The notes beneath the pieces are model-generated. The model was not told where the DNA came from, ran no database searches, and saw nothing but the letters and a program-made list of their open reading frames with translations. This document shows, one piece after another, positions 4,193 through 11,762 of a stretch of 64,000 bases of DNA. Within the stretch, counting starts at the first letter, position 1, and the number at the start of each line of letters is the position of its first letter. The stretch spans positions 3,652,001-3,716,000 of the forward strand of contig NZ_CP012898.1 in NCBI RefSeq assembly GCF_001310225.1, given 5' to 3'. The stretch comes from Pseudalgibacter alginicilyticus. Lineage in GTDB: Bacteria > Bacteroidota > Bacteroidia > Flavobacteriales > Flavobacteriaceae. The position numbers and the translations under genes were made by a program.

Positions 4193-7045
4193 ATGCCGAA
4201 AAATCCAAAGCTTAAATCGATACTAATTATTGGCTCAGGTCCTATTGTAATTGGACAAGCATGTGAATTTGATTATTCAGGAACCCAAGCGCTACGCTCA
4301 CTTAGAGAAGATGGAATTGAAACAGTGCTTATAAATTCAAATCCTGCAACTATCATGACGGATCCTGCCATGGCTGATCATGTGTACTTGCTTCCTTTAA
4401 CTACTAAGTCGATTATACAAATACTAAAAGAGCATCCGCAGATTGATGCTGTATTACCTACTATGGGTGGGCAAACAGCTTTGAATTTATGTATTGAAGC
4501 AGATGAAAAAGGAATTTGGAAAGATTTTGATGTTGAGATAATTGGTGTAGATATTGATGCTATAAACATTACTGAAGATAGAGAACAGTTTAGAGAGTTA
4601 ATGCTTAAAATTGGCATTCCTATGGCTCCTCAAGCTACGGCAACCTCATATTTAAAAGGAAAAGAAATTGCTCAAGAGTTTGGTTTTCCTTTAATTATTA
4701 GAGCGTCATTTACTTTAGGAGGAGCAGGGGCATCCTTTGTTTATAAAGAAGAAGATTTTGATGAATTATTAACACGTGGATTAGAAATTTCTCCAATTCA
4801 TGAAGTAATGATTGATAAAGCTCTAATAGGCTGGAAGGAATATGAATTAGAATTACTTCGTGATTCTAATGACAATGTTGTTATTATTTGTTCTATTGAA
4901 AATATGGATCCAATTGGAATTCATACAGGAGATTCTATAACCGTAGCTCCAGCAATGACTTTAAGTGACAAAACGTATCAAAAAATGCGTGATATGGCCA
5001 TCCATATGATGCGTAGTATTGGTGATTTTGCAGGAGGATGTAATGTTCAATTTGCTGTTTCTCCAGATGAAAAAGAAGAAATTATAGCTATTGAAATTAA
5101 TCCACGTGTGTCTCGTTCATCAGCTTTAGCGAGTAAAGCCACTGGGTATCCTATAGCAAAAATAGCAGCTAAATTGGCTTTGGGATATCATTTAGATGAA
5201 TTAAATAATCAAATTACAAAATCTACTTCTGCGTTATTTGAACCTACTTTAGATTATGTTATTGTAAAGATACCGCGCTGGAATTTTGATAAATTTGAAG
5301 GGTCTGATAGAACTTTAGGACTTCAAATGAAATCTGTTGGAGAGGTTATGGGTATTGGACGTTCTTTTCAAGAGGCACTTCATAAAGCCACACAATCGCT
5401 TGAAATAAAACGAAATGGATTAGGTGCTGATGGAAAAGAAAATAAAAATTATGAGCAGATTATAGAAAAACTCACCTATGCGTCATGGGATAGAGTTTTT
5501 ATTATTTATGACGCTATTAAAATGGGAATTCCGTTGAGTAGAATTCATGAAATCACAAAAATTGATATGTGGTTTTTAAAACAATATGAAGAATTGTACT
5601 TCATAGAAAATGAGATATCTACTTATAAAATTGAAAATATTCAAAAAGAATTATTACTTGAGGCCAAGCAAAAAGGATATGGAGATAGGCAAATAGCTCA
5701 TATGTTAGGTTGTTTGGAAAGTCAAGTTTATAATAAACGAGAAGAACTTGGTATTAACCGTGTTTATAAGTTAGTTGATACGTGTGCGGCAGAATTTGAA
5801 GCCAAAACACCTTATTACTATTCTACTTTTGAAAGCGATATGGAAACAGCTGATGGGAAACGTTATGCTGATAATGAAAGTATTGTAACTGAAAAGAAAA
5901 AAGTTATTGTTTTAGGTTCTGGGCCAAACCGAATTGGTCAAGGAATTGAGTTTGATTATTGTTGTGTCCACGGTGTTTTAGCTGCAGCTGAATGTGGTTA
6001 CGAAACCATCATGATTAACTGTAATCCTGAAACCGTTTCAACAGATTTTGATACTGCTGATAAATTATATTTTGAACCTGTTTTTTGGGAACATATTTAT
6101 GATATTATTAAGCACGAAAAACCTGAAGGTGTTATAGTACAATTGGGTGGGCAAACAGCCTTAAAGCTTGCTGAAAAATTAACTAAATACGGTATTAAAA
6201 TTATTGGAACGAGTTATGAATCTCTTGATTTAGCTGAAGATAGGGGACATTTTTCAAACTTATTAAAAGAAAACAATATTCCTTATCCGCAGTTTGATAT
6301 AGCAACAACTGCAGACGAAGCTTCTGCCATTGCAGATGTATTAGATTTTCCAATATTAGTACGTCCATCATACGTGCTTGGAGGTCAAGGAATGAAAATT
6401 GTTATTAATAAAGAAGAACTTGAAAAGCATGTGGTTGATTTGCTAAGTCAAATGCCAGGAAATCAATTACTTTTAGATCATTATTTAGAAGGTGCTATTG
6501 AGGCAGAGGCAGATGCTATTTGTGATGGAGAGGATGTATATATTATAGGAATCATGGAACATATAGAGCCATGTGGTATACATTCAGGTGATAGTAATTC
6601 TATGCTACCTCCATTTAACTTAGGTGATTTGGTAATGCAACAAATTAAAGATCATACTAAAAACATTGCTTTAGCACTTAATACAGTTGGTTTAATAAAT
6701 ATTCAGTTTGCTGTAAAAGATGATATAGTTTATATCATTGAAGCCAACCCAAGGGCATCAAGAACAGTTCCATTTATAGCAAAAGCTTATGGAGAGCCTT
6801 ATGTGAATTATGCAACGAAAGTTATGCTGGGTGAAAAGAAAATAAAAGACTTTAATTTTAATCCGCAATTAAAAGGGTATGCTATTAAACAACCAGTATT
6901 TTCATTTAACAAATTTCACAATGTGAATAAGAAATTAGGACCAGAAATGAAGAGTACTGGTGAAAGTATTTTATTTATAGATAGTTTAAAAGACGATGAA
7001 TTTTATAACTTATATTCCAGAAGAAAAATGTATTTAAGTAAATAA
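4193..7045 (+). CDS. carB: Carbamoyl-phosphate synthase large subunit lacking the C-terminal regulatory domain
   Basis: Makes carbamoyl phosphate for pyrimidine and arginine synthesis from bicarbonate, ATP and ammonia supplied by CarA. It shows the duplicated architecture: ATP-grasp half 1 (about residues 1-395, with GSGPIVIGQACEFDYSG and EINPRVSRSSALASKATGYP), a helical middle (about 395-540), and half 2 (about 560-935, with GSGPNRIGQGIEFDY and EANPRASRTVPF). The protein ends at residue 950 just after LGPEMKSTGES. The E. coli enzyme continues about 120 residues into an MGS-like domain that senses UMP and ornithine; that domain is missing. carA is not adjacent. Confidence 0.95.
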   Translation: MPKNPKLKSILIIGSGPIVIGQACEFDYSGTQALRSLREDGIETVLINSNPATIMTDPAMADHVYLLPLTTKSIIQILKEHPQIDAVLPTMGGQTALNLCIEADEKGIWKDFDVEIIGVDIDAINITEDREQFRELMLKIGIPMAPQATATSYLKGKEIAQEFGFPLIIRASFTLGGAGASFVYKEEDFDELLTRGLEISPIHEVMIDKALIGWKEYELELLRDSNDNVVIICSIENMDPIGIHTGDSITVAPAMTLSDKTYQKMRDMAIHMMRSIGDFAGGCNVQFAVSPDEKEEIIAIEINPRVSRSSALASKATGYPIAKIAAKLALGYHLDELNNQITKSTSALFEPTLDYVIVKIPRWNFDKFEGSDRTLGLQMKSVGEVMGIGRSFQEALHKATQSLEIKRNGLGADGKENKNYEQIIEKLTYASWDRVFIIYDAIKMGIPLSRIHEITKIDMWFLKQYEELYFIENEISTYKIENIQKELLLEAKQKGYGDRQIAHMLGCLESQVYNKREELGINRVYKLVDTCAAEFEAKTPYYYSTFESDMETADGKRYADNESIVTEKKKVIVLGSGPNRIGQGIEFDYCCVHGVLAAAECGYETIMINCNPETVSTDFDTADKLYFEPVFWEHIYDIIKHEKPEGVIVQLGGQTALKLAEKLTKYGIKIIGTSYESLDLAEDRGHFSNLLKENNIPYPQFDIATTADEASAIADVLDFPILVRPSYVLGGQGMKIVINKEELEKHVVDLLSQMPGNQLLLDHYLEGAIEAEADAICDGEDVYIIGIMEHIEPCGIHSGDSNSMLPPFNLGDLVMQQIKDHTKNIALALNTVGLINIQFAVKDDIVYIIEANPRASRTVPFIAKAYGEPYVNYATKVMLGEKKIKDFNFNPQLKGYAIKQPVFSFNKFHNVNKKLGPEMKSTGESILFIDSLKDDEFYNLYSRRKMYLSK

Positions 7046-7069
7046 TATTATTTTGTCATCTAAATAAAA

Positions 7070-7106
7070 AATGCCCCAAAAAGTTAAACACTTTTGGGGC
7101 ATTTTT
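7070..7106. terminator. Bidirectional terminator between carB and thioesterase
   Basis: TGCCCCAAAA and TTTTGGGGCA form a strong stem around a short AT loop, with A-rich sequence on the left and T-rich sequence on the right. It can therefore serve both converging genes. Confidence 0.85.
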
Positions 7107-7121
7107 ATTGAGCACTCTTTT

Positions 7122-7670
7122 TTATTTAAGTTCAAGTTTTACATTATGAAGTTTTAAACCTTCTAGGTGGTTATCCATTTTAAATTCCGATTGTTTGAAC
7201 TGGCTTGTACGATTTTTAGCTTGTTCTTGTCTAGCAATACTTCTTGCAAATCTACGCACCCCTTGTTCTGTTTCTATAATTATACCCGGAACACTTACGT
7301 TTTTTCCATTTTCATCCTTGGCTACCATAGTAAAATATGAAGAGTTACAATGTTTTTTCTTTCCTGTTTGAATATTTTCTGATTCTACACGTACACCAAC
7401 AACCATAGAGGTATTACCTGTATAATTTATAGATGCTTTAAGTGTAACAAGTTCTCCTACTTCTATAGGATTTAAAAAATCAACTTTATTGACCGAAGCT
7501 GTTACGCAATAATTTCTTGAATGTTTTGATGCACAGGCAAATGCAATTTGATCCATAAGGCTCAAAATAAAACCACCATGAATTTTACCACTAAAATTTG
7601 AATTTGATGGCAACATTAATTGCGTTATTGTAACTTGAGATTCTTTGATTGTTTTAAAAGCTCTTTCCAT
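7122..7670 (-). CDS. Acyl-CoA thioesterase (hotdog fold)
   Basis: A 182-residue hotdog-fold protein of the YciA/BACH type, predicted to hydrolyse acyl-CoA in the cytoplasm. Near residues 20-45 it has NSNFSGKIHGGFILSLMDQ, the conserved loop and helix carrying the catalytic Asp. Residues 60-75 (VNKVDFLNPIEVGELVTLKA) form the central strands. The tail beyond about residue 130 is longer than in YciA and may be a linker. It is first in a run of minus-strand genes; the next gene upstream (7676-8044) ends 5 bases before it. Chain-length preference cannot be inferred. Confidence 0.82.
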   Translation of the reverse strand: MERAFKTIKESQVTITQLMLPSNSNFSGKIHGGFILSLMDQIAFACASKHSRNYCVTASVNKVDFLNPIEVGELVTLKASINYTGNTSMVVGVRVESENIQTGKKKHCNSSYFTMVAKDENGKNVSVPGIIIETEQGVRRFARSIARQEQAKNRTSQFKQSEFKMDNHLEGLKLHNVKLELK

Positions 7671-7675
7671 ATTGA

Positions 7676-8044
7676 CTATCTGTTTTTACTAAAATTAGTA
7701 TTGGTTTCTTCTTCAACTTCCGTAATGAAATATTTGGTATCTCCTAACCAAAAAAAAGTTTTATAACGTTCAAAATACTTTAGTTTCACATATCTACCTT
7801 GTAAATCCATTAAATCTTGAATGACTTGTTTTTCGCTATCCTCAACAGAAAATTCAAATTGAAGTGATTCTGAAACGCCTTGACTTATTTGGCCTTCCCA
7901 AGTTTTTATTAAGGTGCCTTTACGACTAAATTTTACAAGTTCACCAGCTCTTACACCTTCACTATAATGTGCATAGTATAAAAAGCTAAATATGGCAGCA
8001 GATATAATAAAGAGAACAAGAATAAATTTAAGTAAGAATTTCAT
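7676..8044 (-). CDS. Small membrane-anchored protein of unknown function
   Basis: A 122-residue protein with one N-terminal membrane helix (about residues 5-23) and a soluble domain rich in beta strands (VKFSRKGTLIKTWEGQIS, LQGRYVKLKYFERYKTFFW, TKYFITEVEEE). Charged and hydrophobic residues alternate as in a small beta barrel. No catalytic motif is visible and I do not recognise a named family. It lies 5 bases upstream of the thioesterase gene and 28 bases downstream of the DUF3307 gene, so co-transcription is likely. Confidence 0.6.
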   Translation of the reverse strand: MKFLLKFILVLFIISAAIFSFLYYAHYSEGVRAGELVKFSRKGTLIKTWEGQISQGVSESLQFEFSVEDSEKQVIQDLMDLQGRYVKLKYFERYKTFFWLGDTKYFITEVEEETNTNFSKNR

Positions 8045-8072
8045 ATTTTATATAGTTAGTGTGTTTTTCTTT

Positions 8073-8783
8073 TTAAGAATAGACCATAAAATTATATAGT
8101 ATTCCAGTGATAATTGCAATTCCAAAGCTAATTAAAGTGCCAATTAAAATGTACTCAGTTAACTGTCTATCTTTTGACTCTTTTAAATCGCCAAACCTAA
8201 ATACCGATTTTGCTGTAATTAAAAAACCTACAGCTTCCCAGTGGTTAGAAATTATAAATATAAACACTAAAACACGTTCTAAAATACCAATATATTTTCC
8301 TGCGTCGCTAAGTGATTTGTTGTTTTTAGTAAGTTCTGAAATATTCCACTTTGAAAAGATAGTTTTTAAAATTATTGATACAGGAATTGTTAAAAACAAT
8401 AAGCAGGTAATAAGGGTTAAAACATCTTCTGTGAATATGTTAGTTAGGTTGAAATTGTTTTCTGAAAATAAAAAGTAACACACAAAAATTATTAATACAT
8501 GAAGTAATTGATCTATAAAGAATAAGGTGCGTTTTGTTTTTTTATTTTGAATTAAAAGTTTACCTGAATCTATTATTAAGTGCGATACACCAATAATAGC
8601 TATTACAGGCCATAGTTTTAAATCACAAAGCAACAATGAGGTAATTAAAATATGGACGGCTATATGAAGATATAATTTTTTTGATTTTAATTTTTTCTTT
8701 TCCTTTTCTTTAACCCATTTTTGGGGTTGTAAAAAGAAATCGCCTATAATATGTGCCAGAAAAAGTTTTATTAGTAGAATCAT
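8073..8783 (-). CDS. DUF3307 family membrane protein
   Basis: A 236-residue protein with about six membrane helices. It begins with the DUF3307 signature HIIGDFFLQPQKW (residues 11-23), followed by a lysine cluster and LYLHIAVHILITS. A second conserved segment, GVSHLIIDSGKLLIQ, carries His and Asp. The start overlaps the stop of the SatD-like gene by four bases (ATGA), so the two are translationally coupled. SatD and DUF3307 proteins often form such pairs. The biochemical role is unknown. Confidence 0.78.
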   Translation of the reverse strand: MILLIKLFLAHIIGDFFLQPQKWVKEKEKKKLKSKKLYLHIAVHILITSLLLCDLKLWPVIAIIGVSHLIIDSGKLLIQNKKTKRTLFFIDQLLHVLIIFVCYFLFSENNFNLTNIFTEDVLTLITCLLFLTIPVSIILKTIFSKWNISELTKNNKSLSDAGKYIGILERVLVFIFIISNHWEAVGFLITAKSVFRFGDLKESKDRQLTEYILIGTLISFGIAIITGILYNFMVYS

Positions 8784-9394
8784 AATGTGCCTATTTTTTG
8801 TCTATATAAACTGTCTAACTCTAATATTTCATCTAAATGGGCACGTTTTTGCCTATTGCTTATAGCGTTTTGATTGATTCCAATCATATCTCCTAATTCA
8901 CTTTGCAATGCATCAGGGTGCTCTATGCTTAGTTTTACAATTTCAGCTGAATTTACGGTCCAATGATCCATAACAATAAGAGCTAATTTAAAGTATAAAT
9001 TCAGGGAGTTGTTTAGTTTATTATTAGTGGTTTTTATACTTAAGTTAAGTTTTTCTTTTTTTAAAATATCAAGTGTTTCTCCAGAAAATACATAGGCATC
9101 TCCATTAGATTCAGACACCTTGTTGGCTGTATAGGTTTTTGAGCCCAAACCTATGGCTATACGTACATCCAAACCTTTAATAGTTTTAACACAAGCTTTT
9201 ATATAAACAGCAGCTCTAAAGCTATTTTGGTAGTCTTCAATTTCTAATTGAAAACTATCACCTCGATATATTTCCCAATTTGATTTGTTGGGATTTAAAA
9301 AGGTTAATGCCTTTTTTAGTGTATTCATCCATATCTCAGGATTAGACTGGGTTCTAGATTTTATAATGTCGCCTGTTATAATACTGGTTGTCAT
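8780..9394 (-). CDS. SatD-like protein with C-terminal helix-turn-helix-like segment
   Basis: A 204-residue soluble protein. ITGDIIKSR at residues 6-14 and YRGDSFQLEIED near residue 43 are the paired motifs of the SatD family; their spacing recalls the palm motifs of nucleotidyl cyclases (my inference). Near residues 164-181, ELGDMIGINQNAISNRQ has the rhythm of a helix-turn-helix. That fits the three operator-like repeats immediately upstream of its start, so it may be self-regulating. It overlaps the DUF3307 gene by four bases. The activity is not established. Confidence 0.68.
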   Translation of the reverse strand: MTTSIITGDIIKSRTQSNPEIWMNTLKKALTFLNPNKSNWEIYRGDSFQLEIEDYQNSFRAAVYIKACVKTIKGLDVRIAIGLGSKTYTANKVSESNGDAYVFSGETLDILKKEKLNLSIKTTNNKLNNSLNLYFKLALIVMDHWTVNSAEIVKLSIEHPDALQSELGDMIGINQNAISNRQKRAHLDEILELDSLYRQKIGTL

Positions 9395-9396
9395 AA

Positions 9397-9472
9397 TATC
9401 ATGTTTTTAGGTGATAAACAAATATATCACGTATTTAAGTGATAAACAAATATATCATGCTTTTAAATGATG
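9397..9472. promoter_or_regulatory. Three tandem operators overlapping the satD promoter
   Basis: Three copies of TATCAY-N8-RTGATR occur at 9397-9416, 9425-9444 and 9453-9472, with an exact period of 28 bases. The middle copy is a perfect inverted repeat TATCAC/GTGATA. On the minus strand the segments between copies read TATATTTG at 9426-9419 and again at 9454-9447. The first is a consensus -7 box; TTTG of the second falls exactly 20 bases upstream of it and can serve as the -33 box. The operators therefore cover the promoter. The repeat is seen; repression is inferred. Confidence 0.75.
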
Positions 9473-9482
9473 TATTGAAGTC

Positions 9483-10865
9483 TTATTCACCTTTAGCACG
9501 TTTTATAAAAGCTTCAGGTAATGATTTTTTTGCTTTGGCTCCTAATTTTTTTATTTTTTCTACACTTGAAATAAGGTTGCCTCTGCCTTCAACAAGCTTA
9601 TTCATGGCTGAAGAATAATCACTTTTTGCAGCATCAATTTTTTTTCCAACACCTGTTAAATCGGTAACTAAGCCTTCAAATTTATCATAAAGTGCACCTG
9701 CTTGCCTTGCAATTTCAATAGCATTTTGTTGCTGTTTTTCGTTATTCCACATGGTATCAATGGTACGAAGCGTTGCTAATAATGTGGAAGGAGTAACTAT
9801 AACAATGTTTTTTTCAAAGGCTTTATTATAAATGCTATTATCATCATTAACAACAACGGCAAAAGCGGGTTCAATTGGAATAAACATTAATACAAAATCA
9901 GGTGACTCTATATCGTATAAATCTTGGTAGTTTTTTTCAGAAAGTTGATCTACATGCCTTTTAACAGAATTAACATGAGCTTTTAGAAATAGAGGTTTAT
10001 CGTCATCGTCTGCATTAACCAGTCGCTCATAATCAGTTAAAGATACCTTGCTGTCAATGATCATTTTTTTGCCATCAGGAAGGTGTAAAACCACATCGGG
10101 TAGTACGCGAGAACCGTTTTCTAAAGTAAAACTTTGCTGAACAAAGTATTCCCTATCTTTTTCTAAACCAGATTTTTCTAAAACACGTTCTAAAACCAAT
10201 TCGCCCCAATTTCCCTGCATTTTGCTATCGCCTTTCAGTGCTCTTGTAAGGTTGGTAGTTTCTTTAGTCATTTGCTGATTTAAGTCTTTTAAGCCTAAAA
10301 GTTGCTCCTTTAAAGCTGAATGCATACTAATGCTTTCCTTTTGAGTTAAGTCAACCTTTTCTTCAAAGGTTTTAATTTTTTCTTGAAGTGGAGTTAAAAT
10401 ATTTTTAATATTTTCTTTATTTTGTTCGGTGAATTTATTGGATTTTTCTTCTAAAATTTTATTAGCTAACAATTCAAAATCTTTACGTAATTGTTCTTGG
10501 CGTTCTTCTATTTCGGCATCTCGCTTTAAATTAAGTTGTTGCAGATTTTCAAATTCAGTATTTTTTCTGGTTAATTCTGAATTTAGAAACTCTTTTTCGC
10601 GACGAATTTCTTCGCGTTCACTTTCTATTTTGGAAATGGTTTCTTTTAAGTCAGTAATTTGGGTATTAAAATTTTGATTTTGTTTAATAGTTTCAACTTC
10701 ATGCAATTGTTTAAAATCAGTTAACTGTTGCTGTAAATTAGTATTGCGTTCTTCAAGCGTACTTTTTTCACTTTTACTTTTAAGTTTATTGAATAGCATG
10801 CCTAAATAAGCACCAATACCTGCGGAAATAATAATAGTTAGAATTGTTATAAAGCTGTCGTTCAT
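9483..10865 (-). CDS. rmuC: DNA recombination protein RmuC homologue
   Basis: A 460-residue protein with an N-terminal membrane anchor (about residues 5-25) and a long coiled coil rich in Glu, Lys and Gln (about 30-215). The RmuC core (about 215-420) contains GNWGELVLERVLEKSGL, VLPDVVLHLPDGKKMIIDSKVSL and FVLMFIPIEPAFA. The core belongs to the PD-(D/E)XK nuclease superfamily; PDVV and DSKV match the expected Asp and Lys positions. In E. coli, RmuC limits recombination at inverted repeats. Length and domain order are normal. It lies upstream of the SatD operon in the same direction but is separated from it by that operon's own promoter. Confidence 0.9.
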   Translation of the reverse strand: MNDSFITILTIIISAGIGAYLGMLFNKLKSKSEKSTLEERNTNLQQQLTDFKQLHEVETIKQNQNFNTQITDLKETISKIESEREEIRREKEFLNSELTRKNTEFENLQQLNLKRDAEIEERQEQLRKDFELLANKILEEKSNKFTEQNKENIKNILTPLQEKIKTFEEKVDLTQKESISMHSALKEQLLGLKDLNQQMTKETTNLTRALKGDSKMQGNWGELVLERVLEKSGLEKDREYFVQQSFTLENGSRVLPDVVLHLPDGKKMIIDSKVSLTDYERLVNADDDDKPLFLKAHVNSVKRHVDQLSEKNYQDLYDIESPDFVLMFIPIEPAFAVVVNDDNSIYNKAFEKNIVIVTPSTLLATLRTIDTMWNNEKQQQNAIEIARQAGALYDKFEGLVTDLTGVGKKIDAAKSDYSSAMNKLVEGRGNLISSVEKIKKLGAKAKKSLPEAFIKRAKGE

Positions 10866-10967
10866 TTTTAGATAAGAAATTTATCAAATATAATTTTTTA
10901 GTTTGAAGATTGATGTAAGAAAGATACAGTTTTTAAAACACTGTAAAATACAATTAAAAATAGGGTG

Positions 10968-11762
10968 TTATTTTTTCACCCGAAAACTCCCTGTTCCTTT
11001 ATCAAAAATGATTAAATCTTTAGGGAAAAGGGTTTCAAAAACACCTTGTTCTATAAGTTTACAAGGTTGGCCTGAAACCACATTGTTGGGAGTCATAACA
11101 ATTAAAGTATCGCATAATTGAATTGCCAAATCTATTTCGTGTGATGAAAATAAAATAGTTTTGTTAGTGTCTTTTGCCAGTTTTTGAAGTAATTTTAAAA
11201 TATAGGCTTTGTGGTACATATCCAAATGCGTGGTAGGCTCATCTAGAATAATCAAATCGGTATTTTGAACCAAGGCACGCGTTATTAATGCTTTTTGTAG
11301 CTGCCCATCACTAAGTTCAAAACATTTTTTATGCTTTAAATTTTCAATGTTGGTTTGCTGTAAGGCTTTGTTGATGATGGTTAAATCATTTTCCGTTAAG
11401 TTGCCTACCCAATTGGTATATGGTTGCCTGCCCAATGCTACCAATTCAAAAACCGAAAGGTTTTTTGAGGCAATTTGCTCCGTCAATACCAAACTCATTA
11501 CTTTTGCTAAATCAATATCGGAGTGTTTTATAATACTTTTATTGTTGATAAAGATATGCCCGTTTAATGGTTTTTGCACATTAGTTAATGTGCGTAAAAG
11601 TGTAGATTTTCCAATACCATTAGCGCCAATCAACCCAACTAATTCGCCTTTTTTTAGTTGAATTTGGATGTTTGAAGACACCATTGTTTTTTCTTTTTTA
11701 GTGGCATAACCTATTGCTAAGTTTTCAGTTTTTAAGATGATATGATTGGTGTTGTCTGTCAT
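10968..11762 (-). CDS. btuD: Cobalamin/iron ABC transporter ATP-binding protein (BtuD/FecE type)
   Basis: A 264-residue ATPase of the FecCD/BtuCD class. Walker A is GANGIGKST (about residues 43-51), the signature is LSDGQLQKA, Walker B is LIILDEPT, and SSHE supplies the switch His. The signature LSDGQ departs from the usual LSGGQ. The gene ends a minus-strand set btuF-btuC-btuD; its start is 5 bases from the btuC stop. B12 as substrate is inferred from the divergent riboswitch-controlled BtuB/BtuG genes. Ferric siderophore or haem remains possible on family grounds alone. Confidence 0.85.
   Translation of the reverse strand: MTDNTNHIILKTENLAIGYATKKEKTMVSSNIQIQLKKGELVGLIGANGIGKSTLLRTLTNVQKPLNGHIFINNKSIIKHSDIDLAKVMSLVLTEQIASKNLSVFELVALGRQPYTNWVGNLTENDLTIINKALQQTNIENLKHKKCFELSDGQLQKALITRALVQNTDLIILDEPTTHLDMYHKAYILKLLQKLAKDTNKTILFSSHEIDLAIQLCDTLIVMTPNNVVSGQPCKLIEQGVFETLFPKDLIIFDKGTGSFRVKK

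Follow-up and report, generated by a model that had tools for sequence, protein, structure and literature searches.

What binds the three evenly spaced palindromes in front of the satD-like gene of Pseudalgibacter alginicilyticus, and what would their occupation mean for that gene? The palindromes lie in the window, the stretch of 64,000 nucleotides analysed here (contig NZ_CP012898.1, positions 3,652,001 to 3,716,000). The original prediction for this DNA proposed that they form an operator with its own promoter elements, at which the SatD-like protein represses its own gene. Judged from sequence comparison, SatD itself very probably binds the array before its own gene.

The array and the predicted promoter in register with it

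The original prediction placed three TATCAY-N8-RTGATR sites, repeating every 28 bases, directly upstream of the satD-like gene. A repeat search and the site coordinates agree on this arrangement: a 28-base unit is present in three copies with a period of 28 (copies 2 and 3 being 89% and 68% identical to copy 1), and all three sites fit the pattern. The features of the locus are listed below.

8073–8783, minus strand: DUF3307 gene, 236 aa, with an all-helical model, probably a membrane protein; it overlaps the end of satD
8780–9394, minus strand (start at 9394): satD-like gene, 204 aa, with a modelled cyclase/palm-fold domain (about 1–121), a helical linker and a helix-turn-helix (about 147–184)
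9397–9416, unstranded: operator site 1 (proximal), TATCATGTTTTTAGGTGATA, reading TATCAT-N8-GTGATA on the plus strand and covering the predicted start and the satD 5′ leader
9419–9426, minus strand: predicted −7 box of the satD promoter, TATATTTG, the first two bases of which are the end of site 2
9425–9444, unstranded: operator site 2, TATCACGTATTTAAGTGATA, TATCAC-N8-GTGATA, between the −33 and −7 elements and with two bases in common with the −7 box
9447–9450, minus strand: predicted −33 element TTTG, 20 bases before the −7 box and supplied by the neighbouring repeat unit
9453–9472, unstranded: operator site 3 (distal), TATCATGCTTTTAAATGATG, a weaker TATCAT-N8-ATGATG (one base off) just upstream of the −33 element

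The best chain of sites in the window array scored 16, whereas the highest score among 20 dinucleotide shuffles was 9. Across the genome (3,992,500 bases in a single contig), the exact pattern TATCAYN8RTGATA occurs at four places, two of them in the window array, and a reversed control pattern is equally frequent, so that single palindromes carry little meaning. The two-site pattern with at most three mismatches was found only at the satD array, with no occurrence of its reversed control. A search of positions 9350–9520 for RNA elements gave no Rfam match at E ≤ 1.

SatD matches were present in 107 of 199 family genomes. The first set of 119 loci combines 106 of these genomes (G088 was left out) with 13 loci from another search; L104, which has a short frame and a split genome match with a stop inside one piece, was left out of the 118-locus counts. 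A TAT-type array scoring at least 11 was found in 114 of the 118 Flavobacteriaceae satD upstream regions, whereas 590 control windows drawn from these loci yielded none, and the best chain exceeded all 20 dinucleotide shuffles in 106 of 119 loci. When the inner spacer (4–12) and the distance (15–60) were left free in an open scan, the spacing of the best palindrome pair was 28 in 79/118 loci, 29 in 14/118 and 56, or two periods, in 20/118, whereas shuffled regions gave a spacing of 28 or 29 in 2/118. The inner spacer of the best pair in the same scan was 8 in 61/118 loci, 6 in 16, 10 in 18 and another value in 23, a spread that arises in part because a one-base shift of the hexamer moves the spacer by two; when only 7, 8 or 9 was allowed, 8 was chosen in 107/119. 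Earlier tallies (a spacing of 28 in 162/214 and 29 in 36/214; an inner spacer of 8 in 249/309) were set aside as circular, since their half-sites came from a scan that fixed the inner spacer at 8 and the spacing at 27–30 and was thus biased. Arrays contain two to six sites, with three in 80 of 116 and five or six in 4 of 116.

The half-sites themselves vary by clade and include TATCAC/T, TATTCC, TATGCC, TAT[TA]AG, TATCGN, TATCTG, TATTAC, TATATG and others. The array is conserved in its architecture, not in its sequence. A search for the same operator before other satD–DUF3307 pairs, which the original prediction had proposed, therefore recovers the architecture but a half-site that differs from clade to clade. 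Spacer identity was 0.56 within a locus (n = 80) and 0.55 between loci with an equal half-site (n = 1747); because spacers are no more alike within loci than between them, the arrays in general are not fresh duplications, and recent tandem duplication was ruled out as their origin.

The predicted promoter elements share the register of the array. On the minus (sense) strand of the window, TATATTTG occurs at 9426–9419 and again at 9454–9447, and the gap from the upstream TTTG (9450–9447) to the TA of the downstream box is exactly 20 bases; site 3 shares two bases with the copy that contains the −33 element. The window coordinates are thus in the register that had been claimed, in which the downstream copy fits a −7 box and TTTG stands exactly 20 bases before it. 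According to PMC9723704, the flavobacterial sigma-A −7 box (TAnnTTTG) spans −12 to −5 in Flavobacterium psychrophilum. This placement moves the predicted start by two bases, from the neighbourhood of 9412 expected earlier to about 9414, inside the proximal site.

Among the 118 loci, 71 have an exact TAnnTTTG no more than 150 bases away (a fraction of 0.15 in mononucleotide shuffles). In 63 of 101 cases the motif begins 18 bases past the start of a site, and in a further 13 of 101 at 45–46 bases, where the nearest recognisable site is one period upstream of the box. A TTG stands 17–23 bases before TAnnTTTG in 48/118 loci; of the 50 pairs formed by the two motifs in the family loci, 38 have a gap of exactly 20. 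The preferred offset of 18 and gap of 20 place the promoter motif in register with the array in many relatives, in line with the original proposal. A sigma-70-type scan, which is not informative for this phylum, gave 19 promoter-like sequences in 7000–11000 compared with 19.8 in shuffles, and no terminators compared with 1.4.

SatD, its DUF3307 partner and their neighbourhood

The SatD profile (PF16264) matches the window protein over residues 6–186 with E 2.1e-6 and 28.0 bits, compared with a curated cut-off of 29, and at E ≤ 0.01 it matches 55 of 72 aligned relatives. An AlphaFold2 model built from these 72 relatives (mean pLDDT 97.8) gives residues 1–121 the nucleotidyl-cyclase/GGDEF/Cas10-palm fold. 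The best Foldseek match of this domain, and the sole one below 1e-3, is the adenylyl cyclase Ma1120 (4wp9, E 4.7e-4). VIA returned Z 10.0 against the GGDEF domain 4zvg (2.8 Å, 119 residues), 9.9 against GTP cyclohydrolase III (2qv6) and 9.6 against Cmr2 (3ung), on a scale where a best Z of 7–8 is common for models without relatives. D9 is kept in 187 of 188 SatD proteins, as is D46 in a GD[SE]FQ motif (117/118 in the first set and 70/70 in the wider set described below; L104 left out of both counts), the motif used together with D9 as a criterion being drawn from our own alignments. From their place in the fold and in the motif, we take D9 and D46 to be the metal-binding aspartates of class III nucleotide cyclases. 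At the positions of the cyclase transition-state Asn and Arg, aligned by hand, the first set mostly has F/Y101 and G105, and 36 of 70 wider proteins have R105.

At the other end of the protein, the model predicts a helix-turn-helix composed of helices 164–171 and 175–184, the latter being the predicted recognition helix. Among the relatives, the Pfam helix-turn-helix models Sigma70_r4 and HTH_24 match 24/72 and 19/72 proteins at E ≤ 0.01, and the best solved-structure match to the SatD profile is HipB, over the helix-turn-helix (E 0.008). The helix-turn-helix-like segment noticed earlier at the end of SatD is thus backed by both profiles and the structure model. Neither SatD nor DUF3307 matches a defence family of PADLOC-DB at E ≤ 1. 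A limited literature search gave no report of DNA binding by SatD or of the array; PMC10326533 names a SatD family protein and credits acid resistance to it.

The partner protein matches DUF3307 (PF11750) over residues 3–119 with E 2.5e-29. In the first set, satD is followed by a DUF3307 gene of the same orientation in 117 of 119 loci; in the wider set, a search with a profile built here (E ≤ 1e-3) places one downstream of satD in 58 of 70. The fold of the DUF3307 protein gave no convincing match in the PDB (best Foldseek E 1.7), and its best VIA match, Ptch1 (Z 8.1, 115 residues), is within the range common for helical models. In the same limited literature search, DUF3307 turned up in a single paper, where it is listed in a table. 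Residues that are invariant in the DUF3307 protein (G162, I165, G166, E169, R170, G186, K192, R196, E210, Y211, G215, T216 and S219) all lie past the end of the Pfam match.

Elsewhere in the neighbourhood, a 122-aa protein is encoded at 7676–8044, between DUF3307 and a thioesterase-like gene; it has no confident Pfam or NCBIfam match, the best being S1CSD-TOTE-1 at E 0.022. Among the 119 loci, rmuC matches occur in 36, of which 35 are within L001–L043, and thioesterase matches in 33, of which 31 are within the same range.

Covariation of the half-site with the predicted recognition helix

The clade-to-clade variation of the half-site was compared with variation along SatD, numbered as in the window protein, in 115 distinct proteins (L010 and L102, which have no TAT-type call, and one duplicate protein were left out). 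When half-site bases 4, 5 and 6 are considered one at a time, residue 180 leads all 182 columns in adjusted mutual information for every one of them; with the three bases combined into a single label, F59 is first and residue 180 second. F59 and S58 in the N-terminal domain thus also correlate with the operator, and F59 ranks first for base 6 in a further covariation test. Descent was taken into account with a tree built from SatD residues 1–140 only. In the distance-stratified test, residue 180 had an odds ratio of 38, followed by F59 with 9.0, and the median of 184 columns was 1.05. A further test used independent pairs, whose paths on the tree do not overlap: residue 180 differs between the two proteins in 19 of 20 different-operator pairs and in 10 of 40 same-operator pairs (one-sided Fisher p = 1.5e-7), residue 176 in 12/20 and 6/40, and residue 177 in 8/20 and 2/40. 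These three residues, in the order 180, 176 and 177, are ranks 1–3 of 204 positions, all in the predicted recognition helix, whereas F59 falls outside the ten best. The mean distance was 1.12 for different-operator and 0.82 for same-operator pairs (the analysis leaves out 392 pairs of intermediate similarity), an imbalance that is partly controlled because the ranking is against all other positions.

Half-site identity follows the predicted recognition helix of SatD, and the covariation names the residues that track the operator rather than structural contacts. It strongly supports the earlier proposal that the array is bound by the protein encoded beside it, and links the two nearly as directly as sequence comparison allows. 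In one close pair of proteins, L040 and L009 (0.09 apart), residue 180 changes from Thr to Lys and the leading half-site from TATCAC to TATTCC; both arrays are mixed.

Half-sites in the clade of the window include TATCAY, TATTCC, TATGCC and TATCGT, while the rmuC–satD–DUF3307 neighbourhood remains largely constant. The operator specificity of SatD thus seems to have changed in place. Four loci (L007, L009, L039 and L040) combine upstream TATTCC/GGAATA sites with downstream TATCAC/GTGATA sites in one continuous lattice, without a change of register. These mixed arrays may be intermediates of specificity change. They also break the code, in that L039 and L040 (T180) and L007 (G180) have TATTCC at the promoter beside TATCAC sites. 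The loci provide a natural series of orthologous regulators with several changes of specificity, in which the joint change of a repressor and a multi-site operator can be studied directly.

To look beyond the family, PF16264 was searched in a sample of 395 genomes from the phylum, of which 79 gave a match; 14 control genomes gave none. The wider set uses 70 of 87 places (66 of the 70 outside the family), 9 others being already in the set and 8 left out. With a spacing of 26–31 allowed, the wider arrays beat their shuffles in 63 of 70 loci, although these were 6 two-base-block shuffles for each locus (20 for the TAT scan), a weaker control than the 20 dinucleotide shuffles used above. Gln175, at the start of the predicted recognition helix, is present in 117 of 118 first-set proteins. 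In the wider set, a TAT array accompanies Gln175 in 26 of 34 loci and is absent from all 36 loci without it, a comparison that ignores kinship and in which the loci without Gln175 belong mostly to other clades. The eight Gln175 loci without a TAT array are L136, L151, L165, L167, L172, L177, L178 and L182. Many wider loci without Gln175 have palindromes such as TTTCA, AACC and TTGCA.

A table relating residues 177 and 180 to the half-site was trained on 116 loci and applied to the 26 TAT loci of the wider set, of which 25 come from outside the family and several are near relatives of each other. It named 57 of 78 half-site bases correctly, compared with 33.7 by permutation (p = 1e-4), and all three bases in 13 of the 26 held-out loci. 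The 13 misses comprise six loci with A at base 4 where T was predicted (Gln180), three with Asp180, a residue absent from training, and four others. A helix code comprising residues 175, 176, 177 and 180 could yield orthogonal repressor–promoter pairs for these hosts. One genome (G249) has two satD copies (L149 and L173) whose operators differ, as judged by eye a GTTTCA-type array and a TATCTG array, which suggests orthogonal systems.

Proposed mechanism and comparison with known systems

Taken together, we consider it highly likely that SatD is a transcription factor bound to the array of its own promoter, most probably as a repressor of the satD–DUF3307 operon. In the mechanism that we propose, one SatD dimer would occupy each 20-base palindrome. 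The outer TAT, which is constant, would correspond to the conserved Gln175, and the three inner half-site bases that vary between species to residues 176, 177 and 180. Dimers on the two to six sites, spaced by 28 or 29, would jointly occlude both promoter elements (−33 and −7) as well as the start and so block RNA polymerase. The N-terminal cyclase/palm-fold domain would be the bridging part that contacts the neighbouring dimer and, more speculatively, might detect or synthesise a nucleotide that controls how far the array is occupied. Such a role would be a first, testable molecular function for the little-studied SatD and DUF3307 families in Bacteroidota.

The sign of regulation is a separate matter from binding. 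Because the predicted start and both predicted promoter elements of satD in the window lie within the array, repression is the simplest outcome, and we infer that autorepression of satD–DUF3307 is the best reading. Activation of the operon by array-bound SatD, for example after a nucleotide signal and as a positive feedback element, is in our view distinctly unlikely. Covariation speaks for binding and not for its sign, and a position over the promoter would fit activation too, as would the 13 of 101 cases in which TAnnTTTG lies one period below the nearest site, so that the sites stand upstream of it. However, the box abuts a site in the window, as it does in 63 of 101 cases, and the proximal site of the window covers the predicted start. 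In Streptococcus pyogenes, satD is described in PMC11323703 as accessory (178 of 249 genomes) and as essential in the strains tested; essentiality of an accessory gene would fit a repressor of a harmful partner better than an activator, the link to the present protein being by shared name only. Binding by another host regulator, with SatD downstream by chance, is very improbable: the recognition-helix positions track the operator best of all SatD positions (independent-pair test with the N-domain tree), the relation between residue and operator carries over to loci outside the family, and the operator changed while the rmuC–satD–DUF3307 neighbourhood stayed. A neutral tandem repeat produced by slippage would account for a fixed period and for the near-identical units of some loci, such as L036, but its probability is close to negligible given that spacers are equally alike within and between loci and that the half-sites are constant and palindromic.

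The meaning of the period itself is a further point. The original prediction inferred cooperative binding from a spacing of more than two helical turns. This argument is weak, as 28 bases correspond to about 2.7 turns and neighbouring sites would thus face different sides of the DNA, so that a contact between dimers would wind round it. The near-fixed spacing in many genomes would be a better argument for cooperativity, and the fixed period suggests contact between neighbouring SatD dimers. It is rather unlikely that the 28-base spacing is instead set by the −33/−7 distance of the sigma factor alone, without such a contact, although 28 is the sum of the 8-base box and a 20-base gap, the commonest gap in the loci (38/50). 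Arrays with five or six units (4/116) exceed what one promoter needs, distant clades with different half-sites again show a period of 28 or 29, and the hipBA O1O2 pair of Escherichia coli, a host with another promoter type, shows the same spacing (PMC3376134).

The nearest precedent for the satD array is hipBA. According to PMC3376134, it has four cooperatively bound TATCC-N8-GGATA sites, and in the O1O2 oligonucleotide as printed the sites are exactly 28 bases apart. Both systems are two-gene operons, autoregulated in hipBA and putatively so in satD, with several palindromes that have TAT outer bases and an 8-base centre; the hipBA-type feature of multiple palindromes in its own promoter is present in the predicted promoter of satD. 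The half-sites of hipBA have five bases in 18-base palindromes, whereas those of satD have six in 20-base palindromes, and HipB is an antitoxin with a kinase partner, whereas SatD has its own cyclase/palm-fold domain and a DUF3307 partner. In IclR- and MerR-family regulators, helix-turn-helix residues likewise correlate with operator bases, as reported in PMC8222616 and PMC5045206. Those studies pool many orthologous groups, whereas at satD one dedicated array changes with its regulator, orthologue by orthologue. IclR-family regulators also often bind tandem sites, which are 18–22 bases apart from centre to centre according to PMC8222616, compared with 28 or 29 at satD.

The predicted fold of SatD invites comparison with two further systems. 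Panoptes optSE is a two-gene operon of a palm-fold nucleotide enzyme and a membrane effector, to which the predicted palm fold of SatD and its probable membrane partner would correspond; OptS makes cyclic dinucleotides, and the abstract of PMC12657218 mentions no DNA-binding part in it. DUF2652 of Bacteroidetes has a class III cyclase-like topology and two conserved metal aspartates, like the model of SatD, but belongs to another Pfam family and is single-domain with one exception, and the portion of PMC4886424 consulted mentions no helix-turn-helix. It is conceivable, though quite unlikely, that SatD is a nucleotide sensor or enzyme that holds a harmful DUF3307 membrane effector off, that loss of the nucleotide state, for example during phage attack, would clear the array and release the effector, and that fast drift of the operator code would stop cross-repression by an incoming satD.

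Among 50,697 phage records, tblastn returned no match at E ≤ 1e-3. Matches occurred in three plasmid records, and a pattern-limited scan found satD on three IMG/VR contigs. All three contigs (L194, L195 and L196) have a DUF3307 match downstream of satD, and two of them (L194 and L195) have repeated palindromes upstream of about position 2500 with quite different half-sites, GGCCG and ACAGCC, as seen by eye and unscored.
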